DNA of 41,714 nucleotides. It comes from Caulobacteraceae bacterium. GTDB taxonomy: Bacteria > Pseudomonadota > Alphaproteobacteria > Caulobacterales > Caulobacteraceae. The notes beneath the pieces were generated by a model that saw only the letters and a list, made by a program, of their open reading frames with translations, had not been told where the DNA came from and ran no database searches. The position numbers and the translations under genes are program-made. The stretch lies in contig JARLIP010000024.1 in the NCBI GenBank assembly GCA_031291685.1, positions 1 to 41,714 on the forward strand, written 5' to 3'. Positions 2,324 to 33,535 of the stretch are shown here, one piece after another; within the stretch, counting starts at the first letter, position 1; every line of letters starts with the position of its first letter.

Positions 2324-4402
2324 ATGCGCCCGGAGATTCTGTACCCCCTGTTCGCGCCCGCCACGTCCCTCAAGGGCGTGGGGCCCAAGGTCGCGCCGCT
2401 GGTCGAAAAACTGGCGGGGCCGCTGGTGCGCGACCTGATGTTCCTGGCGCCCCAGAGCCTGATCCACAGGCCCGTGGTCACCGCCGAGACCGCCCGAGAG
2501 GGCGAGGTCCAGACCCTGCATGTGGTGATCGACGCCCACCTGCCCCCCGGACGGGGCAGCCAGCCCTATCGCATCCGCGCCTTTGACGGGACGGGGTTTT
2601 TGACCCTGGCCTGGTTCAAGGTGCATGGGGACCATCTGGCCCGGGCCAATCCGGTGGGCGCGCAACGGGCGGTCAGCGGCAAGATCGAGCGCTTTGGCGG
2701 CGAACTTCAGATGGCCCATCCGGACTATCTGGTTCCCATGGAGCGGGCCGAGGAGATCCCGACCCGGGAGGCCGTCTATCCCGCCACGGCGGGCCTGCCG
2801 CCCCGAACGGTGCGACGGCTGGCGCACGAGGCCCTGGCCCGGGCCGCGAACCTACCCGAATGGCAGGACCCCGCCTGGATGGCGCGGGAGGGCTTTCCAA
2901 GCTGGCATGAGGCTCTGACCGCCCTGCACAATCCATCAACGGACGCGGACCTTTCCCCGGAGGCGCCGTTTCGCCGGCGCCTGGCCTATGACGAGTTGTT
3001 CGCCCACCAACTGGCCATGGCCCGGCGTAAATCGGTCCGCCGCAGCCACCCGGCCCCGGCCATAGCTCCGTCGCCCCTGGCGGGACGCGTTGAGGGCGAC
3101 CTTCCCTTCGCCCTGACCGGCGCGCAGCAGCGCTCCCTGATCGAGGTCCGCGCGGATCTGGCCTCCGGGGAGCGGATGTCCCGACTGCTGCAAGGGGATG
3201 TGGGCGCGGGCAAGACCGTGGTGGCCATGCTGGCCATGGCCGATGTCGCGGCGGCCGGGTTCCAGTCCGCCCTGATGGCCCCGACCGAGATCCTGGCTCG
3301 CCAGCATTTCGAAACCTTGGCCGCGCCCCTCAAGGCCCATGGGGTGGAGGTCATTCTATTGACCGGGCGGGACAAGGGCGCGGTGAGGGCCGAGAAGCTG
3401 GCGGCCCTGGCGGACGGCCGCGCGGCGGTGGCCGTGGGCACCCACGCCCTCTTTCAGGATGAGGTTCAGTTTCGCGCCCTGGCCCTGGCGGTGATCGACG
3501 AGCAGCACCGGTTCGGGGTCAATGAGCGCCAGAGATTGCAGGAAAAGGGCCGCGCCACCCACCTCCTGGCCATGTCGGCGACCCCCATTCCCCGGACCCT
3601 GGAGCTGACGGTCTATGGGGACCTGGACGTCTCGCGTCTGGATGAAAAGCCACCGGGCCGCACGCCCGTGGCCACCCGCGCCGTGCCCATGTCGCGCCTG
3701 GGCGAGATCGTCATGCGGCTGAAGCAGGCCGCCGCCGCGGGCGCCCAGGCCTTCTGGATCTGCCCCCTGGTGGCCGAATCCGAGCTGAGCGACCTGGCCG
3801 CCGCCGAGGCCCGGGCGGCGGATCTTCGCCAGGTCTTGGGCGCCGGCGTCGTGGGGCTGATCCACGGGCGGCTGGCCCCGGCGGAAAAGGACGCGGTGAT
3901 GGCCGAGTTCGCCGAGGGGCGGCTGTCAGTCCTGGTGGCCACCACCGTGGTCGAGGTGGGGGTCAATGTGCCCAACGCCACCATCATGGTCATCGAACAG
4001 GCCGAGCGCTTCGGCCTGGCCCAACTGCACCAGCTGCGCGGCCGGGTGGGCCGCAGCACTCGGGAAAGCAGCTGCGTGCTGCTCTATGATCCGCCCCTGT
4101 CGAAGACCGCCGAGGCGCGGCTGGATATCCTGCGGCGCACGGACGACGGCTTCCTGATCGCCGAGAAGGATCTGGAGCTGCGTGGGGGCGGTGATCCCCT
4201 GGGCCTGAAACAGAGCGGCTTTCCCGCCTATCGCCTGGCTGACCCCGTGGCCCATCGGGACCTGATCGCCGTGGCGGCGGACGACGCGCGCCTGGTGCTG
4301 GCTCGGGACCCGGACCTGACCAGCCCCCGGGGGAAGGCGATCAAGGTTCTGGAGGCCCTGTTCGACTGGCGCGCCGACAGCGGGATCGCCGAGGTGGGTT
4401 GA
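2324..4402 (+). CDS. recG: ATP-dependent DNA helicase RecG
   Basis: RecG is a branch-migrating helicase that reverses stalled replication forks and processes recombination intermediates. The protein has 692 residues, the usual RecG length. An N-terminal wedge/OB-fold region (residues about 20-230) precedes the helicase core. Walker A is GDVGAGKT at residues 291-298, the DEQH box is DEQHRF at 392-397, and motif III is the MSATPIPRT segment. The C-terminal helicase domain carries the motif VI segment QLRGRVGRS and the RecG-typical GGGDPLG near the end. The ATG at 2324 fits the family N-terminus (a short tail, then the SLKGVGPK motif); upstream in-frame starts would overlap sdhE. It is convergent with the DUF3089 gene, 24 bp apart. 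Confidence 0.96.
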   Translation: MRPEILYPLFAPATSLKGVGPKVAPLVEKLAGPLVRDLMFLAPQSLIHRPVVTAETAREGEVQTLHVVIDAHLPPGRGSQPYRIRAFDGTGFLTLAWFKVHGDHLARANPVGAQRAVSGKIERFGGELQMAHPDYLVPMERAEEIPTREAVYPATAGLPPRTVRRLAHEALARAANLPEWQDPAWMAREGFPSWHEALTALHNPSTDADLSPEAPFRRRLAYDELFAHQLAMARRKSVRRSHPAPAIAPSPLAGRVEGDLPFALTGAQQRSLIEVRADLASGERMSRLLQGDVGAGKTVVAMLAMADVAAAGFQSALMAPTEILARQHFETLAAPLKAHGVEVILLTGRDKGAVRAEKLAALADGRAAVAVGTHALFQDEVQFRALALAVIDEQHRFGVNERQRLQEKGRATHLLAMSATPIPRTLELTVYGDLDVSRLDEKPPGRTPVATRAVPMSRLGEIVMRLKQAAAAGAQAFWICPLVAESELSDLAAAEARAADLRQVLGAGVVGLIHGRLAPAEKDAVMAEFAEGRLSVLVATTVVEVGVNVPNATIMVIEQAERFGLAQLHQLRGRVGRSTRESSCVLLYDPPLSKTAEARLDILRRTDDGFLIAEKDLELRGGGDPLGLKQSGFPAYRLADPVAHRDLIAVAADDARLVLARDPDLTSPRGKAIKVLEALFDWRADSGIAEVG

Positions 4403-4426
4403 GCGGGAACGCCCCACACGGAGGCT

Positions 4427-5569
4427 TCACTGGCCTCCAGCGCCAGTGCCGGCCTTCGCGACCAGGGCGGCCACGCGGCCTTGGGCGTCGGCCTCGGTGT
4501 CGGCGTAGAACAGGTTGAAGCCGGGCTCCTTGAGCCGCTCTATCCATCCGCCGGTCATCTTCAGGGACGGCGAGTTGGGGGTTGAGACCCGCAGCACACC
4601 GTTGATGCACTGGGTGGAAACCTGGCGCGAGAGGAAGGCCGGCCGCGTGCCCCACTCCAGGTCCGTGGCGTTGGCCGCGCCCAGATTGGCCCTGGCGGGG
4701 ATCTTCTCATCGGACTCGCCGCCCACCAGGGGATTGACGCACAGGATCGGGCGGCCGTGCAGGTCCACGAAATGGTTGTCCGGTCCCCAGACCAGGGAGC
4801 GGCGCAAGGTGCTCTGAATATCCTTGAAGTCGTTTTCGTAGCTCTGGGTCCAGCCGAAGGCGCAGGCGAACTGACCGCGGCGCTCGCAGATCGGCAGCGC
4901 TCCGCCGGCGGCGTAGTCCTGGCGCGGGGCAACCGAGTCGATGAAATAGGCGACGGCCAGACGGTTCTTCAGATCTGGATGAGCGTCCAGCTCTTCGCGC
5001 ACGAGGCGCTGGGCCATCACCCCGCCCTGCTCCACACCGGCGATCACCAGCGGGCGGGCGCCATTGTAGCTCCCCAGGAAGAAATCAAAGGCCCGTCTCA
5101 CGTCGCCATAGGCGAATTCCCGCGCGTCCCTGGCATCCTCATGCAGGGTCAGCTGGGTGAACAGGCTGGCCTGGCGATAACGTGGGGCGAAGACACGGCC
5201 GACGCGGGCGAAGGGTCCGGCATAGTTGGGCGCCACGACCCGGTAGAAATAGCGCAACGCCGCCGGATCATTGATCGGCTGGTTCCAGTCCCGCCCACCC
5301 TCGAAGGCGGTGGGATAGATGAAGAAAACGTCGGCGGGGGGATCGGAGGGCGTCCCATGGGCTGGGTCTGGCGGCAGCAGGTACCAGCCGTCCCTTCTGG
5401 CATAGTCCGGCGCCGGCGGCGGGCGATAGGTCTGGAACGGCTGCTTGGGGTCCAGCATGGCCTGCAGGATGTCGTGTCGCCAGCGCATGGCGGCCAGGAG
5501 CATCAGGGCGATCACGACGATCACCGTGATCTGCAGCCCCTCCTTGAAGGTCAGTCTGGGTTTGCCCAT
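4427..5569 (-). CDS. Membrane-anchored DUF3089 alpha/beta-hydrolase-like protein with altered nucleophile elbow
   Basis: This is a 380-residue protein with one N-terminal membrane segment (residues about 11-28) and a periplasm-facing domain recognisable as DUF3089. Supporting segments are DVFFIYPT near residue 80 and DDV-like strands leading to the nucleophile elbow. Family members normally show GHSQG at the elbow, as in lipases. Here the segment reads IAGVEQGG at residues 176-183, so Glu180 occupies the position of the nucleophilic Ser and Val179 that of the His. The reading frame is intact, so this is not a sequencing frameshift. The protein may be a non-catalytic member or use different chemistry; the substrate is unknown. 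It lies 26 bp downstream of hldD on the same strand and may belong to the kdsA-hldE-hldD envelope operon. A GGGAGG lies two bases before the ATG, closer than usual. Confidence 0.8.
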   Translation of the reverse strand: MGKPRLTFKEGLQITVIVVIALMLLAAMRWRHDILQAMLDPKQPFQTYRPPPAPDYARRDGWYLLPPDPAHGTPSDPPADVFFIYPTAFEGGRDWNQPINDPAALRYFYRVVAPNYAGPFARVGRVFAPRYRQASLFTQLTLHEDARDAREFAYGDVRRAFDFFLGSYNGARPLVIAGVEQGGVMAQRLVREELDAHPDLKNRLAVAYFIDSVAPRQDYAAGGALPICERRGQFACAFGWTQSYENDFKDIQSTLRRSLVWGPDNHFVDLHGRPILCVNPLVGGESDEKIPARANLGAANATDLEWGTRPAFLSRQVSTQCINGVLRVSTPNSPSLKMTGGWIERLKEPGFNLFYADTEADAQGRVAALVAKAGTGAGGQ

Positions 5570-5595: not shown

Positions 5596-6597
5596 CTACC
5601 GGTAAGGATCCGGTTGGGACAGATAGTTTTGCACATAGTTGCTAATGCCCGCTTCCAGGGACGTCAGGGGCGCAGCATAGCCGGCCTGGCGCAGGCGACC
5701 CATGTCGGCCTCGGTGAAATACTGATATTTTTCTCGCAGGCCCTCGGGCATGTCGCGATATTCGATCCGCGGCTCATGGCCAGCCGCGCGAAACACCGCC
5801 TCGGCCATATCCTTGAACGAGCGGGCTTGGCCGGAGCCGAGATTGAACACGCCGCTGACCCGTTCAGTCTGCAACAGCCAGAGCACCACGTCGGCCACGT
5901 CCCGCACATAGACGAAGTCCCGAAGCTGGCCGCCGTCGGCGTAGCCCTCCCGGTGGGACTTGAACAGGTGAACGGTCTCCCCCCGGCTGGCCTGGGGCCA
6001 GATCTGGGCGGCCACGGACTTCATCCCACCCTTGTGGCCTTCATTGGGTCCATAGACGTTGAAGAACTTCAGCCCCACCCACTGGGAGGGCGCATGGCCC
6101 CTGGAGGCTTCCCGGGCGGCGAACAGGTCGAACAGGGCCTTGGACCAGCCATAGGCGTTCAGGGGGCGCAGGGCTTGCAAGGCGGCGATATCGTCCAGTC
6201 CGCCGAACCCCTGGCCGCCATCCCCATAGGTCGCCGCCGACGAGGCGTAGATCAGCCGCCGACCATGGTCAGCGCACCAGCGATAGAGGTCCCGGGACAG
6301 GCTGAAATTGTTGTGGATGATCTTGTCGGCGTCCACTTCAGTGGTGGATGAGATGGCGCCCATATGGACCACCGCCCGCACGTGATCGGCGTTGGCGTCC
6401 AGCCAGTCGAACATGACTTCAGGCGCGATGAAGTCGGCGATCGGATGCTTGGAGAGATTGCGCCACTTGCCGCTGTCAGCGGTGCGCAGGCGATCGCTGA
6501 CCACCACATCCAGGCTGGGGTCTTCGGCCAGCCGTGCGGCGATATTGGAGCCAATAAAGCCGGCGCCCCCGGTGACCAGGATCGTCGATGCGCTCAT
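5596..6597 (-). CDS. hldD: ADP-L-glycero-D-manno-heptose 6-epimerase HldD
   Basis: HldD converts ADP-D-glycero-beta-D-manno-heptose to the L-glycero form, the last step in making the heptose donor for the lipopolysaccharide inner core. The 333-residue protein is an extended short-chain dehydrogenase: the NAD(P)-binding GGAGFIGS lies at residues 10-17, SSAATYG supplies the Ser, and YGWSK gives the YxxxK catalytic pair. The HldD-specific segments KFFNVYGPNEGHKGGM and LRDFVYVRD are both present. The start ATG at 6597 overlaps the hldE stop by four bases (ATGA), showing translational coupling in the order kdsA-hldE-hldD. The cytoplasmic location and role are secure from family knowledge. Confidence 0.96.
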   Translation of the reverse strand: MSASTILVTGGAGFIGSNIAARLAEDPSLDVVVSDRLRTADSGKWRNLSKHPIADFIAPEVMFDWLDANADHVRAVVHMGAISSTTEVDADKIIHNNFSLSRDLYRWCADHGRRLIYASSAATYGDGGQGFGGLDDIAALQALRPLNAYGWSKALFDLFAAREASRGHAPSQWVGLKFFNVYGPNEGHKGGMKSVAAQIWPQASRGETVHLFKSHREGYADGGQLRDFVYVRDVADVVLWLLQTERVSGVFNLGSGQARSFKDMAEAVFRAAGHEPRIEYRDMPEGLREKYQYFTEADMGRLRQAGYAAPLTSLEAGISNYVQNYLSQPDPYR

Positions 6598-8060
6598 GCG
6601 CCCCCCGAGAGTTTCTTGATCGCCGCCGAGGTGGAATAGCCATCAACAATCTGGGCCAGGCGGACTTGGCCGCCATAGCTCTGCACCAGCTCATGGCCGA
6701 CCACGCCCTCGACGGTATAGTCCGCGCCCTTGATCAACACGTCGGGCCGAACCCGTTCGATCAGGCCGATGGGGGTGTCTTCGTCGAAGGACGCCACCAG
6801 ATCCACCGAACCCAGACCCGCCAGCACCAGGGCCCGGGATTCGACGTCATTCACCGGCCGGGTCGGGCCCTTGAGCGCACGCACCGAGCGGTCACTGTTG
6901 ACCCCCACCACCAGCCGGTCGCACCAGGATCGCGCCTGGGCCAGATAGGCCACATGGCCCCGATGCAGGATGTCGAAGCAGCCGTTGGTGAAACCGACCT
7001 TCAGGCCCTGGGCGCGCCAATGGGCGACTTCGCGGGAAAGGCGCTCAGGCGTGACGATCTTGGCCTCCACCGGCGCGCGGTGAGCGGAGAGCTCGGCCTC
7101 GATCAACTCGGTCGGGGTGACGATGGCGGTGCCGGGCTTTTGCACCGCCACGCCAGCCGCCAGCAGGGCCAGACCGATGGCGTCCGCGATATCGGCCTTG
7201 GCGGCGAGGCCCAGGCCCAGGGCCGACAGGGCCGTGTCTCCCGCGCCCGAGGCGTCGAACACCTCGCGAGGCACACCACGGAAGTGGCGAACGGGCTCGC
7301 CGCGCACGGCCAGCGACATGCCCAGGGCCGAGCGGGTCACCAGCACCGCCTTGCACTGGCTGAGGGCCAGCGCCCTGGCCAGGGCGGCGTCCACCTCGGC
7401 GTCCGTGCCGGTGGGCATATCGACGGCGTGGGCCAGTTCGGCGGCGTTGGGCTTGACGATATCAGCCTCGCCATAGCGGGCGAAGCCGCGGGCCTTGGAA
7501 TCCACGATCAGGGGCGCGCCGCTGGCCTTGGCGGCGGCGAGACAGGCGGCGATCACCCCGGCGGTCACCGCGCCCTTGCCATAGTCGGACAGCAGGATCG
7601 CACCGGCGCCCTTGGCCTGTTCGGCGATGGCGGTGATCATCCCGGCTTCCGCCTCGGCCGAGATGGGCACCACGTCCTCATGATCGACCCGCAGGAGCTG
7701 CTGTCCGGCGGCGATGAAGCGGGTCTTCAGCGCGGTGACCCGGCTGGCCTGAACCACAAGGTGGCCCTCCAGACGGTCCTCGGCGGCGACAAGGGCGCGA
7801 GCCTCGTCGGCCAGGGGATCGGCGCCCACCACGCTGATCAGGACGGCGCGCCCCCCGAGGGCGGAGATGTTCCGGGCCACATTGCCCACCGCGCCCAGCA
7901 TCACCAGCTCGTCCCGTCGGGCCATGACCGGAATCGGCGCCTCGGCGGAGATGCGCGTGACGTCTCCCCGCACAAAACGGTCCACCATCAGATCGCCGAC
8001 ACAGACGATACGCGCGCCAGCGATGTCGCCGAGCAGGTTTTGAAGGGCGGTCAGGTCCAT
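6594..8060 (-). CDS. hldE: Bifunctional heptose-7-phosphate kinase / heptose-1-phosphate adenylyltransferase HldE
   Basis: HldE phosphorylates D-glycero-D-manno-heptose 7-phosphate at O-1 and later adds AMP, feeding HldD. The 488-residue protein is a two-domain fusion of the usual size. The N-terminal PfkB/ribokinase domain (residues about 1-330) has GAVGNVARN and the ATP-site DASGAGDT. The C-terminal nucleotidyltransferase domain has GFTNGCFDILHRGHV, the expected HxGH signature. I chose the ATG at 8060 (MDLTALQNLL) because it matches the family N-terminus. An in-frame TTG at 8096 would overlap the kdsA stop by four bases and add 12 Thr/Pro/Ser-rich residues, and cannot be excluded. It is coupled to hldD downstream by an ATGA overlap. 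Confidence 0.96.
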   Translation of the reverse strand: MDLTALQNLLGDIAGARIVCVGDLMVDRFVRGDVTRISAEAPIPVMARRDELVMLGAVGNVARNISALGGRAVLISVVGADPLADEARALVAAEDRLEGHLVVQASRVTALKTRFIAAGQQLLRVDHEDVVPISAEAEAGMITAIAEQAKGAGAILLSDYGKGAVTAGVIAACLAAAKASGAPLIVDSKARGFARYGEADIVKPNAAELAHAVDMPTGTDAEVDAALARALALSQCKAVLVTRSALGMSLAVRGEPVRHFRGVPREVFDASGAGDTALSALGLGLAAKADIADAIGLALLAAGVAVQKPGTAIVTPTELIEAELSAHRAPVEAKIVTPERLSREVAHWRAQGLKVGFTNGCFDILHRGHVAYLAQARSWCDRLVVGVNSDRSVRALKGPTRPVNDVESRALVLAGLGSVDLVASFDEDTPIGLIERVRPDVLIKGADYTVEGVVGHELVQSYGGQVRLAQIVDGYSTSAAIKKLSGGA

Positions 8061-8092
8061 TGGCGAGGGTGTCGTTCCAGACGTCGCGGGCG

Positions 8093-8965
8093 TCAAGCCG
8101 GACGGCGCCGCTTGGTCAGGGCGTCATAGTCCAAAAGCTCGGCCACGAGGGCCTCGAACTGGCTCAGGGGCACCATGTTGGGGCCGTCCGAGGGGGCGTT
8201 GTCCGGATCAGGATGGGTTTCGAGGAACACCGCCGCCACTCCGACGGAGACCGCCGCCCGGGCCAGGACCGGGACGAATTCCCGCTGGCCGCCGGAGCTT
8301 GCGCCCTTTCCACCGGGCTGCTGCACCGAATGGGTGGCGTCGAACACCACCGGACAACCGATCTCGGCCATGATCGGCAGGGCCCGCATGTCGGAGACCA
8401 GGGTGTTGTAGCCGAAGGAGACGCCGCGCTCGGTGGCCATGGCGTTGGGATTGCCCCCGGCCAGGATCTTTTCGATGACGTTCTTCATGTCCCAGGGCGC
8501 CAGGAACTGGCCCTTCTTGACATTGACGACCTTGCCGGTGGCCGCCGCGGCCAGCAGCAGGTCGGTCTGGCGGCACAGAAAGGCGGGGATCTGCAGCACA
8601 TCGACCGCCTGGGCGGCCTGGGCGCACTGCTGGATTTCGTGCACGTCCGTCAGCACCGGAAGGCCTGTGACCTCGCGGATCTCGGCGAAGATCGGCAAGG
8701 CGTCCTCAAGACCGAGGCCCCGGGCGGTGTTCACCGAGGTGCGGTTGGCCTTGTCGAAGGAGGTTTTGTAGATCAGCCCGATATCCAGGCGCTCGGCGAT
8801 CTCCTTCAGGGCGTGCGCCGTTTCCAGGGCGTGCTGGCGGCTTTCCAGTTGGCAGGGCCCGGCGATGATCGAAAGCCGCTCGGAATTGCCGATCCGGACC
8901 GTTCGGCCGTTAGGGGTTTGGATGGCCACGACCGCATTGGCCGCCACGGCTTTAGATTGGGTCAA
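8093..8965 (-). CDS. kdsA: 3-deoxy-8-phosphooctulonate synthase KdsA, metal-dependent type
   Basis: KdsA condenses phosphoenolpyruvate with D-arabinose 5-phosphate to give Kdo 8-phosphate, the precursor of the Kdo that links lipid A to the core oligosaccharide. The 290-residue protein shows IAGPCQLES at residues 34-42, [28 protein letters not shown] and FDATHSVQ, all KdsA signatures. Cys38 sits where metal-dependent enzymes have the metal ligand; the E. coli-type enzyme has Asn there. This is therefore probably a metallo-KdsA, an inference from known family subtypes. It heads the minus-strand block kdsA-hldE-hldD, which joins Kdo and heptose supply. It is divergent from the FAD oxidase gene at 9052. 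Confidence 0.96.
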
Positions 8966-9051
8966 TCGGGTGTTCCGCTAATCCGAGGGTCGAACTGGGC
9001 CGTAGAAGTGGCGTGCCGGTCGAAAAGGCACAAGAGCCAACAGGACCAGAC

Positions 9052-10371
9052 ATGAAGATCGCTGTGATCGGCGCCGGGGTTACGGGACTTGGGGCGGCCT
9101 ACGCCTTGAAGGATCGCCATGATGTCGTCCTCTATGAAAAGGACCCCCGTCTTGGTGGTCATGCTCATGGGGTGGCGGTGGACTATGACGGCGTCCCCAT
9201 TACCGTGGACACCGGCTTCATCGTCTATAACACCCGCAACTATCCGAACCTCGTCGGGCTTTTTGATGACCTTGGGGTGGAGACCCTGGCCACGGATATG
9301 AGCTTCGCCTGCGCCGGGCGGGGCGTGGAATGGTCCTCGAATTTCCCCAGGGGCGTGTTCGCCCAGAAGCGCAACCTGTTTCGCCCCAGCTTCCTGGGCA
9401 TGCTGGCCGATATCCGCCGGTTCAACCAGCAGGCCATGGCGGACTTGGAGAGCGGACGCCTAAGCGACCTGACCGTGGGAGGCTATCTGCGCTTGAACGG
9501 CTTTAGCGAGGCGTTCGAGCGCCAATATCTGCTGCCCATGGGGGCCGCGATCTGGTCGACCAGCGAGGGTGGCATACTGGAGGCGCCGGCCGAGTGCTTG
9601 GTGCGCTTCTTCGCCAATCACAGCCTGTTGCAGGTGGTCCAACCCCGGTGGCGCACGGTGAAGGGTTCGAGCCAGGCCTATGTGACGCCCCTCGCCGCGC
9701 GACTGGGCGGGCGGGTCCGCGGCGGAGTCGGCGCGGTCGCCATCCGCCGCGACCCGAACGGCGTGACGGTTCGCGACACCTTGGGGCAAAGCCAGCGCTT
9801 CGATCACGTGATCATGGCCTGCCATTCGGACCAGGCCCGGCGATTGCTGGCCGACGCTGACGCCGAGGAGCAGGCCTTTCTGGGCGCCATCCGCTTTTCC
9901 CCCAATCGCGCCTATCTGCATCGTGATCGGGCCCTGATGCCCAAGCGTACTGCGGCCTGGGGCAGTTGGAACTATATGTACGACGAAGCCACAGCGTCCG
10001 GGTCGGTGACCTATTGGATGAACACCTTGCAGCACATTGATCGGTCCAGACCGCTCTTTGTCAGCCTCAATCCGGTGACCCCGCCGGATCCGGCGCTCAC
10101 CTTTGGAGCCTACGCCTACGATCATCCCCAGTTCGACACCCCATCCCTCGCGGCCCAGCGCCAGTTTGGGCGACTGCAGGGGCGCGGCGGGGTCTGGTAT
10201 GCGGGCGCCTGGCTGGGGCACGGTTTCCATGAAGACGGTCTGACCTCCGGACTACGGGTCGCCCTGGCCTTGGGCGGTCAGGTTCCCTGGGCCTTCGTCG
10301 ATCATAGGATCGAGGGCGGTCCCCTAACCCCTCCGCCAGCCCTCCCCGTCTCGAAGCGGGCCGCGGCGTGA
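9052..10371 (+). CDS. FAD-dependent amine-oxidase-like protein (COG2907 type)
   Basis: This is a 439-residue flavoprotein. It begins with a Rossmann FAD-binding motif, IGAGVTGLGAAYAL at residues 6-19, followed by the YEKDPRLGGHA segment that contacts the FAD ribose. The C-terminal GAWLGHGFHEDGLTSG closes the FAD site as in flavin amine oxidases and desaturase-like enzymes. The ATG at 9052 is preceded by AGGA with a six-base gap; an earlier in-frame GTG at 9013 has no such signal. The stop overlaps the next gene by four bases (GTGA). Its partners are a DUF1365 protein and a Cfa-like methyltransferase. This trio recurs in proteobacteria and is linked to modification of unsaturated fatty acyl chains and the singlet-oxygen response. 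The exact reaction of this member is not established. Confidence 0.85.
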   Translation: MKIAVIGAGVTGLGAAYALKDRHDVVLYEKDPRLGGHAHGVAVDYDGVPITVDTGFIVYNTRNYPNLVGLFDDLGVETLATDMSFACAGRGVEWSSNFPRGVFAQKRNLFRPSFLGMLADIRRFNQQAMADLESGRLSDLTVGGYLRLNGFSEAFERQYLLPMGAAIWSTSEGGILEAPAECLVRFFANHSLLQVVQPRWRTVKGSSQAYVTPLAARLGGRVRGGVGAVAIRRDPNGVTVRDTLGQSQRFDHVIMACHSDQARRLLADADAEEQAFLGAIRFSPNRAYLHRDRALMPKRTAAWGSWNYMYDEATASGSVTYWMNTLQHIDRSRPLFVSLNPVTPPDPALTFGAYAYDHPQFDTPSLAAQRQFGRLQGRGGVWYAGAWLGHGFHEDGLTSGLRVALALGGQVPWAFVDHRIEGGPLTPPPALPVSKRAAA

Positions 10372-17546: not shown

Positions 17547-18182
17547 TCAGAGACCGCTGCTGGAGATCTCCGCCACCACCAGACCCTTGGGCCCCTCGGC
17601 GAACCGGACCATCACATCCTCGCCGGGCTGGAGATCTTCCAGCCCGCTACGACGCAGGGTCTCGATGTGGACGAAGATGTCGCCGGGAGAGCCATCGCGG
17701 ACCACGAAGCCGTAGCCCTTGGTGCGGTTGAACCACTTGACCCGGGCTCGCTCCAGCGGCCCGGCGGCCTCGGGCGCCCGCCTGGGCGGGCCCCGATCGC
17801 GAAAGCCCCCATGCATGGCCGCGCCGCGATGGCTGTCGAAGCCGTCCCGCTCACGCCTGAAGCCCCCATCCCGATCCGTGGGCCTGGGCCGCTCGATGGC
17901 CGGGGCCGCCGACGACTCGTCCAACTCGTGGACGGCCGAGACCTGCCAGCCCTTCGGGCGGCGGACCACGTCGCAAACCACGACGGATCCCTCCAAGGCG
18001 CTCTCGCGACCGGTCTGACGCAGACTGGTGACATGCAGCAGCACGTCTTTCATCCCCGTCTGACTTGGATCGTCAGGAACGATAAAGCCATAACCTTTAC
18101 CAGCGTCGAACCACTTCACGTGGCCGCTGATCCGAACTGATTCCTCAGCGGAATCGGAATCGCCGAAACCGTAACTAGACAT
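17547..18182 (-). CDS. Double cold-shock-domain protein (CspC/CspD type of Caulobacter)
   Basis: This 211-residue protein has two cold-shock domains. Domain 1 spans about residues 18-86 ([16 protein letters not shown]2-like DVLLH at 47-50). Domain 2 spans about 146-208 ([18 protein letters not shown] at 168-172). In domain 1 the RNP2 motif is DVLLH rather than DVFVH, so a nucleic-acid-stacking Phe is replaced by Leu. The 58-residue linker is rich in Arg, Gly, Asp and Pro and resembles RNA-binding RGG-type disorder. Two-domain Csps are known in Caulobacter, where they act in stationary phase rather than cold shock. The 144-bp region upstream of the start is long enough for a structured leader. 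I give no symbol because CspC and CspD cannot be told apart here. Confidence 0.9.
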
Positions 18183-18326
18183 CCCGCCCCTCTGGCCCGT
18201 CCAAAGTCCAACACGGACGGGCGCTAAAGGGTAACAGTGTTCTCGACGGATCGGTGCGTCAACAATTCATTCGCCATATGGGCGATCTGAGATGCGGTAT
18301 TCCGCCGCACCCCCTGTCACGTCCGC

Positions 18327-18401
18327 TGGCAGTCCCTAGGGGAGTCGAACCCCTCTTCCCAGATTGAAAATCTGGTGTCCTAACCGATAGACGAAGGGAC
18401 C
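18327..18401 (-). tRNA. tRNA-Glu (anticodon TTC), CCA encoded
   Basis: The minus strand folds as tRNA-Glu. The acceptor arms are GGTCCCT and AGGGACT (a G-T pair at the first position), the D arm is CGTCTATCGGTTAGGACA, the anticodon loop is TTTTCAA with TTC, and the T arm contains GGTTCGACTCC. The discriminator is G and CCA is encoded at 18329-18327. A clear promoter lies just upstream. Confidence 0.97.
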
Positions 18402-18418
18402 GCTGCGGAAGGAAGGGC

Positions 18419-18447
18419 CGTATATCCGCCTTCCCGGGGTGGTGCAA
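18419..18447 (-). promoter_or_regulatory. Sigma-70-type promoter of tRNA-Glu
   Basis: On the minus strand, TTGCAC (18447-18442) is followed by a 17-bp spacer and TATACG (18424-18419). Seventeen bases separate the -10 element from the mature tRNA 5' end, which fits a short leader. The alphaproteobacterial housekeeping sigma factor favours TTG-rich -35 elements like this one. Confidence 0.65.
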
Positions 18448-18533
18448 GTCTTTCGACCGCACCCCTTTTGCAAAAAATTCGCGGAAGGCCTTGGCCGTAC
18501 CGCCAGGGGTGAAAACAAGGGGGTTTCAAGCCC

Positions 18534-24564: not shown

Positions 24565-26874
24565 ATGGCGAGCCAGCCGGCACTGACCCGAACCAAGCGC
24601 GGCAAACCCAGGGCCGAGTCCCCCGAGTCTCCCCACAAGACCGAAAGCAAGTCCGCGAAGAAACAGGCCAAGAAGGCCGCCAAAGCGGTCGCGGCCGCGC
24701 CGACCAAGATCGAAAAGCTTGATGGTAAGTCCGCCAAGGCGATCAGCCCGGCCCCCGCGGCCAAGTTGGCGCCGAAGGCCAAGGCCGCGGTCGCCGCCAG
24801 CGCTTCACCCCCGAAGAAGACCGCAAAGGCCCCGGTCAAGGTGGCCGCTAAGGCCGTCCCTCCACTCGCGCCCAAGGCCATAACCACGGCCAAGCCCAAG
24901 GTGCCTGCGGCGCCCAAGGCCTCCCCTAAGATCGCAACCCCTAGTGCGGCAAGGACCAAGGCAGCCAAACCCGAATCTGTCAGTCGCCCCACGCCCCGCG
25001 CGGAAACCCCGCCACCGGGACCGGAACCCAAGGCCGCGCCGGGCGCGGAACAGGCCGCGGGCCTTGGCGCCTTCGGCCAGAACGTCCTGGAGATGATGAC
25101 GCCCGAGCAGCGTCAGACGCTCGAATCGATGTCGGTCAATCTGGCCCGGGCCGCCCTCACCGCCCAGGGGGCGATAGCCGAGGCCGCCCTGCGTCAGGCT
25201 GACCGGCCCGCGGCCCTGTCTCACGATCCCTTCCATGTAACCCCTGCCCTGACCCAGGTGATGGGCCGCCTCGCCGAGCAGCCCGATCTGATCATGCGCG
25301 CCCAGGCCGATCTGTTCGCCCGCTACACGGACCTGTGGCGAAACGCCGCCCGCCGCGCCTCGGGCGAGCCCGTCGAGCCCGTCGTCACGCCGGCCAAGGG
25401 CGACAAGCGATTCGGCGATCCGGACTGGACCGACAACCCCGTGTTCGACGTCATGAAGCAGTCCTATCTGCTGACCTCGAACTGGCTCAGCGGCCTGGTC
25501 TCAGGGGTCGAGGGCGTGGAGCCCCTCGAAAAACGCCGGGTCGAATTCTTCACCAAGATGCTCACCGACGCCTTTTCTCCGTCAAACTTCCTGGTCTCCA
25601 ACCCCGCCGCCCTGAAGGAAATCGCGGCGACCAAAGGTGAAAGCCTCCTGCGGGGGATGGAGAACTTCGCGGAGGACATGGCGCGCGGCGGGGGCCAACT
25701 CTCCATCAGCCAGACGGATTTCGACAAGTTCAAGGTGGGTGAGAACATCGCCACCGCCCCGGGCAAGGTGGTGTTCCAGAACGAGCTGATCCAGTTGCTG
25801 CAATTCTCGCCCACAACCGAGACCGTGCACGAGATCCCGCTGCTGATCTTCCCGCCCTGGATCAACAAGTTCTACATCCTGGACCTGCGGCCCGAGAACT
25901 CGATGATCCGCTGGCTGGCCAGCCAGGGCTTTACGGTGTTCGTCACCTCCTGGGTGAACCCGGACCAGAAACTCGCGACCAAGACCTTCGAGGACTACAT
26001 GATCGACGGGGTCTATGCCGCCAGCCAGGCGGTGATGACCCAATGCAAGGTCGACCGGATCAATACGGTCGGATACTGCATCGGCGGCACCCTGCTCTCC
26101 TGCACCCTGGCCTATATGGCGGCCAAGGGGGACGAGCGGTTCTCATCGGCCACCTTCTTCGCCGCCCAGCAGGATTTCAGCGAGGCCGGCGATCTGCTCC
26201 TGTTCACGGACGAGGACTGGATCGGCGACGTCGAAAAGCAGATGGACGCTGGCGGCGGCGTGCTGTCGGGCAAGGCCATGGCCGACACCTTCAACGCCCT
26301 GCGCGGCAACGACCTGATCTGGTCGTTCTTCGTCAATAACTATCTCCTGGGCAAGGAGCCCAAGCCCTTCGACCTGCTGTTCTGGAACGCGGACCAGACC
26401 CGCATGCCCAAGACCCTGCACCTGTCCTATCTGCGGGAGTTCTATCGCGACAATAAGCTGGCCAAGGGTGAGCTGGTCCTGGGCGGGGAGCGGATCGACC
26501 TGTCCAAGGTCAAGATCCCGGTCTTCGTGCAGTCCTCCAAGGAGGATCACATCGCCCCCTATCGCTCGGTCTATAAGGGCGCGCGTCTGTTCGGCGGACC
26601 GACCCAGTTCATGATGGCGGGCTCGGGCCACATCGCCGGCGTGATCAATGCACCTGTGGCTCAGAAATATCAGCACTGGACCAACACCGCCCTGCCCCCG
26701 AAAGTCGAGGACTGGATCTCTGGCGCGATGGAGCATCCAGGGTCCTGGTGGACCTATTGGGCTGAATGGCTGGGCGCGCGTTCTGGGCCGATGGTTCCCG
26801 CGCGTGATCCGACCAAGGGTCCGCTAAAGCCTATCGAGGACGCCCCGGGCAGCTTCGTGAAGGTGCGTTCGTGA
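24565..26874 (+). CDS. phaC: Class I poly(3-hydroxyalkanoate) synthase PhaC with Lys/Ala/Pro-rich N-terminal extension
   Basis: PhaC polymerises (R)-3-hydroxyacyl-CoA into storage polyester at the granule surface. The 769-residue product has the lipase-like box GYCIGG with catalytic Cys505, Asp661 in KEDHIAPY and His689 in GSGHIAG, the complete PhaC triad. The PhaC_N region covers about residues 240-410. Class I enzymes are usually near 570-600 residues. The excess is residues 1-165, a low-complexity segment of Ala, Pro and Lys (29 Lys in the first 160) with repeated AKK/KAA/PKA units like those of histone H1-like or PhaM-type DNA-binding tails. The start ATG at 24565 is preceded by AGGGAG with a ten-base gap, so the extension appears to be translated. 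No second synthase subunit (PhaE) or phasin gene is adjacent. Confidence 0.93.
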   Translation: MASQPALTRTKRGKPRAESPESPHKTESKSAKKQAKKAAKAVAAAPTKIEKLDGKSAKAISPAPAAKLAPKAKAAVAASASPPKKTAKAPVKVAAKAVPPLAPKAITTAKPKVPAAPKASPKIATPSAARTKAAKPESVSRPTPRAETPPPGPEPKAAPGAEQAAGLGAFGQNVLEMMTPEQRQTLESMSVNLARAALTAQGAIAEAALRQADRPAALSHDPFHVTPALTQVMGRLAEQPDLIMRAQADLFARYTDLWRNAARRASGEPVEPVVTPAKGDKRFGDPDWTDNPVFDVMKQSYLLTSNWLSGLVSGVEGVEPLEKRRVEFFTKMLTDAFSPSNFLVSNPAALKEIAATKGESLLRGMENFAEDMARGGGQLSISQTDFDKFKVGENIATAPGKVVFQNELIQLLQFSPTTETVHEIPLLIFPPWINKFYILDLRPENSMIRWLASQGFTVFVTSWVNPDQKLATKTFEDYMIDGVYAASQAVMTQCKVDRINTVGYCIGGTLLSCTLAYMAAKGDERFSSATFFAAQQDFSEAGDLLLFTDEDWIGDVEKQMDAGGGVLSGKAMADTFNALRGNDLIWSFFVNNYLLGKEPKPFDLLFWNADQTRMPKTLHLSYLREFYRDNKLAKGELVLGGERIDLSKVKIPVFVQSSKEDHIAPYRSVYKGARLFGGPTQFMMAGSGHIAGVINAPVAQKYQHWTNTALPPKVEDWISGAMEHPGSWWTYWAEWLGARSGPMVPARDPTKGPLKPIEDAPGSFVKVRS

Positions 26875-26943
26875 GGTGTTGTTCTATTATATTGAAGGGT
26901 GTCCGGGTTGGAAGCTCTCGATTCTTATTCAAAGGAGCCAGCG

Positions 26944-27990
26944 CTAGCTGGAGGACTTATCCGTTTCCTCAAGAATTCCCAACGCGGCGCGCAGATTGAT
27001 GGAGTCAGCTCCAGGAAACCATCCAACCTCTTCTATATGGTCCCATAGGCGCTCGATGTGGCTTTTGGAGGCGGCTTCGAAGTGGGAGGTCATATCGGAC
27101 ATGTATTGATCGAGGTGGTCCTCATTTACGATATCCACGTATCGATCTCCTGATTCGATTCCGCTCACGATAATTCTTGCGGATTTGACCTCGCTGACCT
27201 CAGCATCCCGCAGAACCCATAATTTTGCGCCAAGCACTACGAATGGGTGAAGATAGGTGGACCTGGTGAGTTCGGCATCCAAGAAGAACGACGTCTGATC
27301 TACGCGTTCACTCTCTCGGGTAAATGGTGGAAGGCTCGCGTGGACATAATCCAAACTCAGAATGCGAGCTCTCGCCAGCCCTCCATCGACGGCTGATAAG
27401 CACGCCCTAACCGCGCCCCATGCTGGGCTAATTTTCCCCTGTTCTGCACTTTCACGCCCGCCCTTTGTTTCGCGAAACGCTGTTGCGACCACCTCAACAG
27501 GAGGCGCCGTCACGTGGGATGGCGCGAGCAACGCTCTCCCGTCATCTGGATAAGCTCGCCCGACAACATGGTCGTATAACGTGCGAATGTCGCGATGTTT
27601 GCTCAGGCGATACTCATTCGAGAGTCTATCAACAACTCCTGCAAGCTCTCCCTCTCTTCCAACCCAGTAATTGCTGACACTTATTCTGCTTTTCTCGCCA
27701 ATATCGTCAGGTGACAGAATAATATTAGAATTATGTAGCGATTTGCATTCGCAAAAAATCTCCATGTTGATGATCGGTGCGCCGATGCCTTCGTACTTGC
27801 GAGGACTATCCAGTAGATGCCGGGAATAAACGTCTATCTCTCGCTGCTTCCCTGTCTCCGCGTCCTGATAGTAGACGCCTCGGCTGGCAGGCCAATGATT
27901 GGTGCGAAAAGACTCAGCCACCCTTTTCTCAAGACGTAGAGATCGCGCAGCATCTGACTTGGCTAGAATGTCTCTGATGTCGCCGGTCAC
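26944..27990 (-). CDS. Unrecognised protein with PD-(D/E)XK-nuclease-like N-terminal region, low G+C
   Basis: I do not recognise this family. Counting from the GTG at 27990, the 348-residue protein starts with a helix (LRLEKRVAESF, residues 18-28), then a hydrophilic turn and QREIDVYSR with Asp53, then a strand MEIFCECKS with Glu81 and Lys83. The order helix-Glu, Asp, Glu-x-Lys is the core pattern of PD-(D/E)XK nucleases and related restriction enzymes. The C-terminal 200 residues have no motif I can name. An upstream TTG at 28086 would add 32 residues of unlikely composition. G+C is clearly lower than in the neighbours (25 of 60 at 27661-27720, 21 of 60 at 27721-27780), and codon use is mixed, pointing to horizontal gain. 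No methyltransferase, integrase or toxin-antitoxin partner is adjacent. A defence role is possible but unproven. Confidence 0.65.
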   Translation of the reverse strand: MTGDIRDILAKSDAARSLRLEKRVAESFRTNHWPASRGVYYQDAETGKQREIDVYSRHLLDSPRKYEGIGAPIINMEIFCECKSLHNSNIILSPDDIGEKSRISVSNYWVGREGELAGVVDRLSNEYRLSKHRDIRTLYDHVVGRAYPDDGRALLAPSHVTAPPVEVVATAFRETKGGRESAEQGKISPAWGAVRACLSAVDGGLARARILSLDYVHASLPPFTRESERVDQTSFFLDAELTRSTYLHPFVVLGAKLWVLRDAEVSEVKSARIIVSGIESGDRYVDIVNEDHLDQYMSDMTSHFEAASKSHIERLWDHIEEVGWFPGADSINLRAALGILEETDKSSS

Positions 27991-28184
27991 TCTGTCACTT
28001 TCGGATGTGATAAAGCGGAGCCCTCTGACCCAGCTTTGCAAAAATGCGAGGCACGCAGCCTCTTGTGAGGTCGAATGACAACCCAAATAAACGGGGAGGC
28101 ATTCGCAAGTTGAGTTCGGTCAAACCGGTGAAGGCCGATGATGGAATGTCGAGGAGCTGAGGCCCTCCCGACGCCCACCGCCAT

Positions 28185-32994: not shown

Positions 32995-33405
32995 TTAGGA
33001 GCGAACGAGCACGGCATCGAGTCTGGCCTTGGCCGACTCGAGAACCGTCAGGGCGTCTTCCAGGCGATCTCGCTCCAAGCCACTGAATTCCAGGGCTTCT
33101 TCGAGCTGTTCAATGCTGTCCGCGATTTCATCGACTGCGCCTGATGCGGCCATGAGCCGGCGAACGCCCTGCTCCTTGTGCAGTTTCTGCACGCCCTTGA
33201 TGGTGTAGCCTTCGTCGTGAAGCAGGGTTCGCACCCCCTTCAGCACCGCCAGATCCTGGGGACGATAGAATCGCCGCCCCCCTGCCCGCTTCATCGGCCG
33301 GATGAAGGAAAAGCGGGTTTCCCAAAAGCGAAGCACATGCTGCGGCACGCCGAGTTCCTCGGCCGCCTCAGAAATCGTGCGGAATGCTTCCGGGCCTTTA
33401 GACAA
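32995..33405 (-). CDS. MerR-family transcriptional regulator
   Basis: This 136-residue protein has a MerR-type winged helix-turn-helix at residues about 8-75. The segment [19 protein letters not shown] is the helix-turn-helix, RRFYRPQDL is the wing, and [14 protein letters not shown] is the second helical motif. A coiled-coil-like C-terminus ([22 protein letters not shown]) should mediate dimerisation; no cysteine metal site is present. The start is a TTG at 33405 ([10 protein letters not shown]), chosen for family fit. The gene follows ihfA with a 130-bp gap that contains a palindromic repeat. The ihfA-merR order is conserved in Alphaproteobacteria, but its targets are unknown to me. Confidence 0.88.
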
Positions 33406-33422
33406 TGAAACCGTACCCTAGG

Positions 33423-33494
33423 CCTAGAGCATGTCCGGACCAGATAAAATCACCTGATCGGGATAGGCATGCTCTAATTCAAAAGTTTAGAGCG
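33423..33494. repeat. Palindromic intergenic element (REP/RIME-like)
   Basis: TAGAGCATG (33425-33433) and CATGCTCTA (33468-33476) form perfect nine-base arms around a 34-base centre, and a third copy of the motif core, TTTAGAGC, follows at 33486-33493 after an A-rich link. This architecture (AGAGCATG, inner imperfect pairing, CATGCTCT, AAAAGTTTAGAGC) resembles the short dispersed palindromes of alphaproteobacterial genomes. It occupies the gap between ihfA and the MerR gene and could form a stable stem in their transcript. Copies elsewhere cannot be seen in this window. Confidence 0.6.
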
Positions 33495-33535
33495 CGACGG
33501 GCGGTGACGCCGCTCACACTTTCGCCTGTCACGCC

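Follow-up and report, generated by a model that had tools for sequence, protein, structure and literature searches.

A low-G+C islet between phaC and msrB in a Caulobacteraceae genome carries a stand-alone PD-(D/E)XK nuclease-like gene, a probable accessory defence gene

The window, the whole 41,714-nucleotide stretch of contig JARLIP010000024.1 (assembly GCA_031291685.1) from a Caulobacteraceae bacterium, contains a short islet of low G+C wedged between the convergent genes phaC and msrB. The islet holds a single gene, on the minus strand, encoding a nuclease-like protein. Its direct neighbours are phaC, msrB, an acetyltransferase gene and argC, in keeping with the sequence-only reading, which had seen neither a methyltransferase nor a recombinase beside it. 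The features are as follows, with residues numbered here and below by the 380-residue reading of the gene unless stated otherwise.

24565..26874, plus strand: phaC, left flank, named by sequence; native G+C, convergent with msrB
26875..28184, no strand: low-G+C islet of 1,310 bp, the entire interval between the convergent phaC and msrB stop codons; absent from relatives
26944..27990, minus strand: nuclease gene, most probably read from the GTG (348 aa); a TTG at 28086 opens the longest reading, of 380 aa
27742..27954, minus strand: first half of the predicted PD-(D/E)XK core, with E53 at 27928-27930, D85 at 27832-27834 and E113-C114-K115 at 27742-27750
27265..27714, minus strand: insertion, residues about 125-274, between core strands 3 and 4; a partly low-confidence segment, then the long helix 221-250
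27025..27264, minus strand: second half of the predicted fold, residues 275-354, with the strand HPFVVLG (a motif common to relatives), more strands and a long C-terminal helix
28185..28703, minus strand: msrB, right flank, named by sequence; native G+C, same strand as the nuclease gene

The islet differs sharply in composition from its surroundings, with 52% G+C against 66% around it and a GC3 of 54% against 82-86% in the six neighbouring genes. Measured over its longest reading (26944-28086, minus strand), the nuclease gene has 52.3% G+C and a GC3 of 53.5%, while the remaining contig stands at 66.3%; the lowest gene-sized stretch in the contig flanks, at 60.8% G+C, is still above it. The background for these comparisons comprised the window and the starts of 18 contigs of the same genome, the window's own contig included, and among the 702 gene-sized stretches from these contig starts the minimum was 56.2% G+C, so that none is as low as the islet gene. 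The drop to 21-25 G+C bases per line of 60 reported earlier is correct for the lowest lines, the true minimum being 18 of 60 at 27700. The edges, described earlier as close to gene boundaries, coincide with them exactly: the islet is bounded on the left by the phaC stop codon (26874) and on the right by that of msrB (28185), the two genes converging on it. Two milder G+C dips of 57-59% occur elsewhere in the window, at 18001-18500 and 33001-33500, at or near tRNA genes.

Comparison of the phaC-msrB interval across related genomes, which had been proposed as a check, showed that relatives lack the nuclease gene at this site, and none of the genomes of the bacterial family that were searched has it. 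In a genome of the same genus (G383), the stop codons of phaC and msrB overlap with zero sequence between them, and the order phaC-msrB-acetyltransferase-argC is preserved without the nuclease gene. The junction is likewise empty in two genomes of other genera (G281 and G275). The insertion was thus clean, disrupting neither phaC nor msrB. In two further genomes (G386 and G067), different small genes, native in G+C, occupy the junction, encoding a PH-domain-like protein and a small membrane protein (L025 868-1498, L033 1124-1498), from which it follows that the site tolerates insertions. A gene of native composition at this site throughout the bacterial family, the outcome that would have refuted the sequence-only reading, was not what the relatives displayed, and composition together with the empty site marks the gene as foreign; horizontal acquisition is its best reading. 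No direct repeats and no paired repeats bound the islet edges, and the neighbouring genes include no recombinase of the kind by which a self-mobile element would be recognised. Insertion at a harmless junction of two convergent genes is the best explanation of this arrangement. Because msrB sits just upstream on the same strand, read-through from it into the nuclease gene is possible.

The start of the gene was placed by comparison with its relatives. Eighteen of these start 17-31 residues before the glutamate of helix 1, and the corresponding distance in the window protein is 20 from the GTG at 27990 and 52 from the TTG, which makes the GTG the likelier start. The residues highlighted by the sequence-only reading, Asp53, Glu81 and Lys83, are present in the resulting 348-residue protein and correspond to D85, E113 and K115 of the 380-residue reading. 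The superfamily pattern of a glutamate on helix 1, with an aspartate and a (D/E)xK motif on neighbouring core strands, is therefore in place as E53, D85 and E113-x-K115.

The window protein eluded ordinary sequence searches. Pfam, NCBIfam, PADLOC, PHROGs and the PDB gave no match for it; against PADLOC-DB 2.0.0 (2023), a release that predates more recently added systems, it gave 0 matches at E<=10, and ten aligned family members gave 0 at E<=1. Neither tblastn in plasmids and phages nor exact-peptide scans of genome and viral contigs with the single protein found a relative, and a search at E<=0.001 across 390 genomes of the bacterial family and samples of the order, class and phylum returned nothing beyond chance stretches. 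Weak single-sequence genome matches, including a second one in the window's own genome, were set aside as apparent chance hits to dehydrogenase, glycosyltransferase, RTX and frame-noise stretches.

Relatives emerged from degenerate motif scans around TGKxREID, which yielded one locus (L049) and then many more. They include plasmid genes from Enterobacter, Priestia, Leptospira, Arthrobacter and Mycolicibacterium, all carrying no annotation beyond that of a hypothetical protein, as well as copies in E. coli chromosomes and in one genome of the same phylum (G701). The spread is patchy, covering at least four phyla, and mostly concerns prophages or viral contigs, plasmids and genomic islands. A profile of 18 viral-contig relatives, built without the window protein, recovered it from among 880 sequences at E=6e-13 and reported neither the reversed sequence nor any of 20 shuffled versions; this match is strong over residues 52-132, the C-terminal part aligning in the right order and weakly when taken alone. 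The REID block, and to some extent G49, E53, D75 and K80, had been selected by the motif scans themselves, so conservation in these columns cannot count as independent evidence. That of E113 and K115 can, since both were absent from the DNA patterns that recruited these relatives; the two residues are retained in 14 and 18 of the 19 aligned sequences, respectively. Artificial variants of the query served only to steer the motif scans and entered neither the profiles nor the alignment used for structure prediction. Over the full alignment, the window protein shares only 12-21% identity with its relatives, and the relatives match the libraries weakly, at entries that include XisH, UPF0102, NERD, DUF4143 and Hjc, all of which we take to be PD-(D/E)XK families. 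The earlier statement that the C-terminal 200 residues match nothing thus stands at the level of library profiles and falls once motif scans are used.

Five of the 19 aligned sequences form a branch in which Ser-Cys-Lys replaces Glu-Cys-Lys. The serine form at the expected catalytic Glu-x-Lys was seen in L086, L088, L097, L100, L112, L050 and L051, while L068 carries Glu-Ile-Ile, without the lysine; catalysis is possibly altered or lost in these SCK members and in L068. The Leptospira copies (L053 and L052, about 6000-6820) are annotated as 160 aa, with similarity continuing over ~820 bases, and the gene is probably interrupted or frameshifted there. In L084 (4578-5501), the family member has a possible paralogue nearby, a diverged protein that shares its helix and carries the motif as RELD.

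Structure prediction agrees with the motifs. AlphaFold2 with the 19-sequence alignment gave a pLDDT of 71 and a pTM of 0.71, with a confident core (mostly pLDDT above 90) and an insertion that is partly of low confidence; a model from the single sequence (pLDDT 33) was left uninterpreted. The alignment-based model runs from helix 45-62, bearing E53, through strands 68-74, 81-92 (D85) and 105-115 (E113-x-K115) into an insertion that extends to about residue 274 and includes a long helix (221-250), followed by further strands and a long helix to residue 354. The predicted structure has the helix-strand-strand-strand-helix-strand topology of the PD-(D/E)XK superfamily, its core helix and strands carrying the motif residues, so that a fold lacking this core, which would have overturned the nuclease assignment, was not obtained. 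Foldseek without realignment gave no match below E=0.001. Among its realigned candidates, McrC (Z 8.4), VC1899 (8.2), Cdn1 (7.9) and AF1548 (7.0) stood at or near the top, a Z of about 8 being middling by the structure-alignment tool's own note, and Can2, FokI, Hjc, NucC, Card1, HindIII and BamHI came next. Nearly all of these leading neighbours belong to the PD-(D/E)XK superfamily, the one that the motifs had predicted beforehand. The structural alignments span residues 41-341, reaching past the insertion of ~150 residues, and the C-terminal region is for this reason read as being, for the most part, the nuclease fold's second half. In the model, the protein is a PD-(D/E)XK nuclease fold whose two chain ends complete one core; the C-terminal 200 residues, once listed as unknown, are as a whole not an extra domain. 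The superfamily is well known, while the family itself has no model in the profile libraries searched, and our literature search found no paper describing it.

The low G+C seen in the window recurs among the relatives. At all 24 family genes examined the flanks are richer in G+C, by 12 points on average (Wilcoxon p=1e-7), and for most of these genes almost no flank window of equal size falls as low. In one prophage record (L097, IMGVR_UViG_2897721305_000014), the family member at 4209-5306 lies between AbiJ (1997-2785) and Tmn (6569-9466), each identified by a PADLOC model; the three genes stand in a row on the same strand and are a small prophage defence cluster. In E. coli, the member is present in 14 of 5,426 genomes, two genes from an integrase on a MobQ island at tRNA-Asn (as read in two of the 14). 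These two loci, whose surroundings point most clearly to defence or to an island, carry members of the more distant SCK branch with serine in place of the catalytic glutamate. The window copy itself is in no defence island. A 530-residue protein of unknown function is encoded between the E. coli island integrase and the family member (L114 10357-11949); in strain MS14386 (L115) this protein is split in two and the family member is also shortened.

Other loci offer varied company. For further viral-contig members, we take the neighbours to be an integrase and a cytosine methyltransferase in L100, P2-like tail genes in L088 and L090, lysis genes in L068 and L081, repressor-like genes in L067 and HicAB-like genes in L086. 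Two distantly related loci share a neighbour gene (L067 8149-9405 and L088 102-1322), presumably a RES-domain-like toxin; apart from this pair, no partner gene recurs beside family members. Lone insertions between housekeeping genes are found in the window, in G701 (between an alcohol-dehydrogenase-like gene and sucD) and in the mtn cluster of an Enterobacter plasmid, and a Priestia plasmid carries a relative in the vicinity of a gene for a damage-repair protein.

Taken together, these findings favour, at a probability of roughly 60%, a horizontally acquired stand-alone nuclease that most likely serves as accessory defence against foreign DNA. The parts of this reading differ in strength. Nuclease activity, predicted from motifs and fold, is very likely. 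A defence role, suggested by the positions of relatives next to AbiJ and Tmn, as integrase-proximal cargo and at prophage cargo sites, is slightly favoured. In such a role the protein would act as a metal-dependent DNase with E53, D85, E113 and K115 as its active site, and the helical insertion between the core halves may recognise or sense the target, thereby protecting the carrier from foreign DNA. Because no methyltransferase lies beside the gene, self-protection would have to lie in the nature of the target, such as DNA that is modified or of unusual structure, or in activation upon infection. Recognition of modified or unusual DNA, drawn by analogy with type IV restriction, is a rather doubtful proposal. 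The cognate DNA methyltransferase that defines type II restriction-modification is lacking at the islet and the relatives have no constant partner, and the earlier judgement that this is a stand-alone gene and not a standard restriction-modification unit is upheld. A broader proposal, somewhat short of even odds, is that of an undescribed cross-phylum family of single-gene nucleases defending bacteria as well as prophages and plasmids, with a sensing module inside the core and one branch working with serine for the catalytic glutamate.

Several other roles could be imagined for such a gene. A horizontally acquired repair or recombination nuclease, Hjc-like or XisH/UPF0102-like and with branched or damaged DNA, not invading DNA, as its substrate, would account for the Hjc enzymes among the structural neighbours (Z about 5-6), the weak library matches to UPF0102, Hjc and XisH and the damage-repair gene near the Priestia relative. 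Core repair genes, however, do not display so patchy and strain-specific a spread or so consistently low a G+C, relatives have AbiJ and Tmn as neighbours, and the protein is two to three times the size of Hjc, all of which renders this role improbable. Equally improbable is a nuclease of the abortive-infection or toxin type, which would stay inactive up to the arrival of an infection signal and then kill or arrest its own host cell; although the signal-activated Cdn1, Can2, Card1 and NucC are structural neighbours and the L067 and L088 members adjoin related genes read as RES-domain toxins, no sensor, nucleotide cyclase or antitoxin gene recurs beside members and no known ligand-binding domain was recognised.

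A selfish nuclease gene of the homing type, inserting at neutral sites without any host role, would explain a lone gene at a precise intergenic position that is empty in relatives, as well as the lone insertions in G701 and the Enterobacter mtn cluster. It is nevertheless very unlikely, given that members occupy unrelated sites, that the islet edges lack terminal repeats and that many members are cargo of phages and islands with integrases of their own. The genome is a fragmentary metagenome bin (361 contigs, completeness 81%), which raises the thought of an assembly chimera or a decayed gene fragment; this is scarcely credible, as both flanks keep the gene order of G383, the islet fills the exact intergenic space, and the frame is open over 348-380 codons with its catalytic residues intact. 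An acquired nuclease with an accessory defence role thus remains the preferred reading.

Ordinary sequence searches are known to miss PD-(D/E)XK families (PMC1913061), and the present one is invisible to all profile libraries searched, yet has members in at least four phyla. As a one-gene system, it lends itself to easy cloning and testing. The family also marks loci where accessory defence genes may occur, and a gene-sized G+C dip at a convergent intergenic site can guide to such genes.

Comparison with known systems places the family within familiar territory while setting it apart. Hjc, AF1548 and XisH/UPF0102/NERD share the superfamily motifs, but the relatives' profile matches to them are all weak and the present family stands out by the long insertion that separates core strands 3 and 4 and by a C-terminal half of its own. 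Rousset et al. (2022, PMC9122126) showed that small, high-turnover loci flanked by conserved phage genes serve as reservoirs of anti-phage systems, and several relatives occupy prophage or island cargo positions resembling the hotspots of P2/P4-like phages described there; the window copy, in contrast, lies on a chromosome contig without adjoining phage genes, and the family was not found among those described. Cdn1, Can2 and Card1 are single-polypeptide defence nucleases whose PD-(D/E)XK core aligns with the window protein (Z 5.5-7.9). These enzymes carry a CARF ligand domain and need type III CRISPR signalling, whereas no CARF domain was recognised in the window protein, where the Can2 and Card1 alignments cover mainly the nuclease core and the insertion is partly of low confidence. 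McrC, of the type IV system McrBC, differs in its insertion, shares 10% identity and is accompanied by an McrB-type AAA+ GTPase that has no adjacent counterpart here; even so, it provides the best core match (6hz4_M, Z 8.4, 3.4 A over 134 residues) and belongs to a system that, like the islet gene, does without a methyltransferase.
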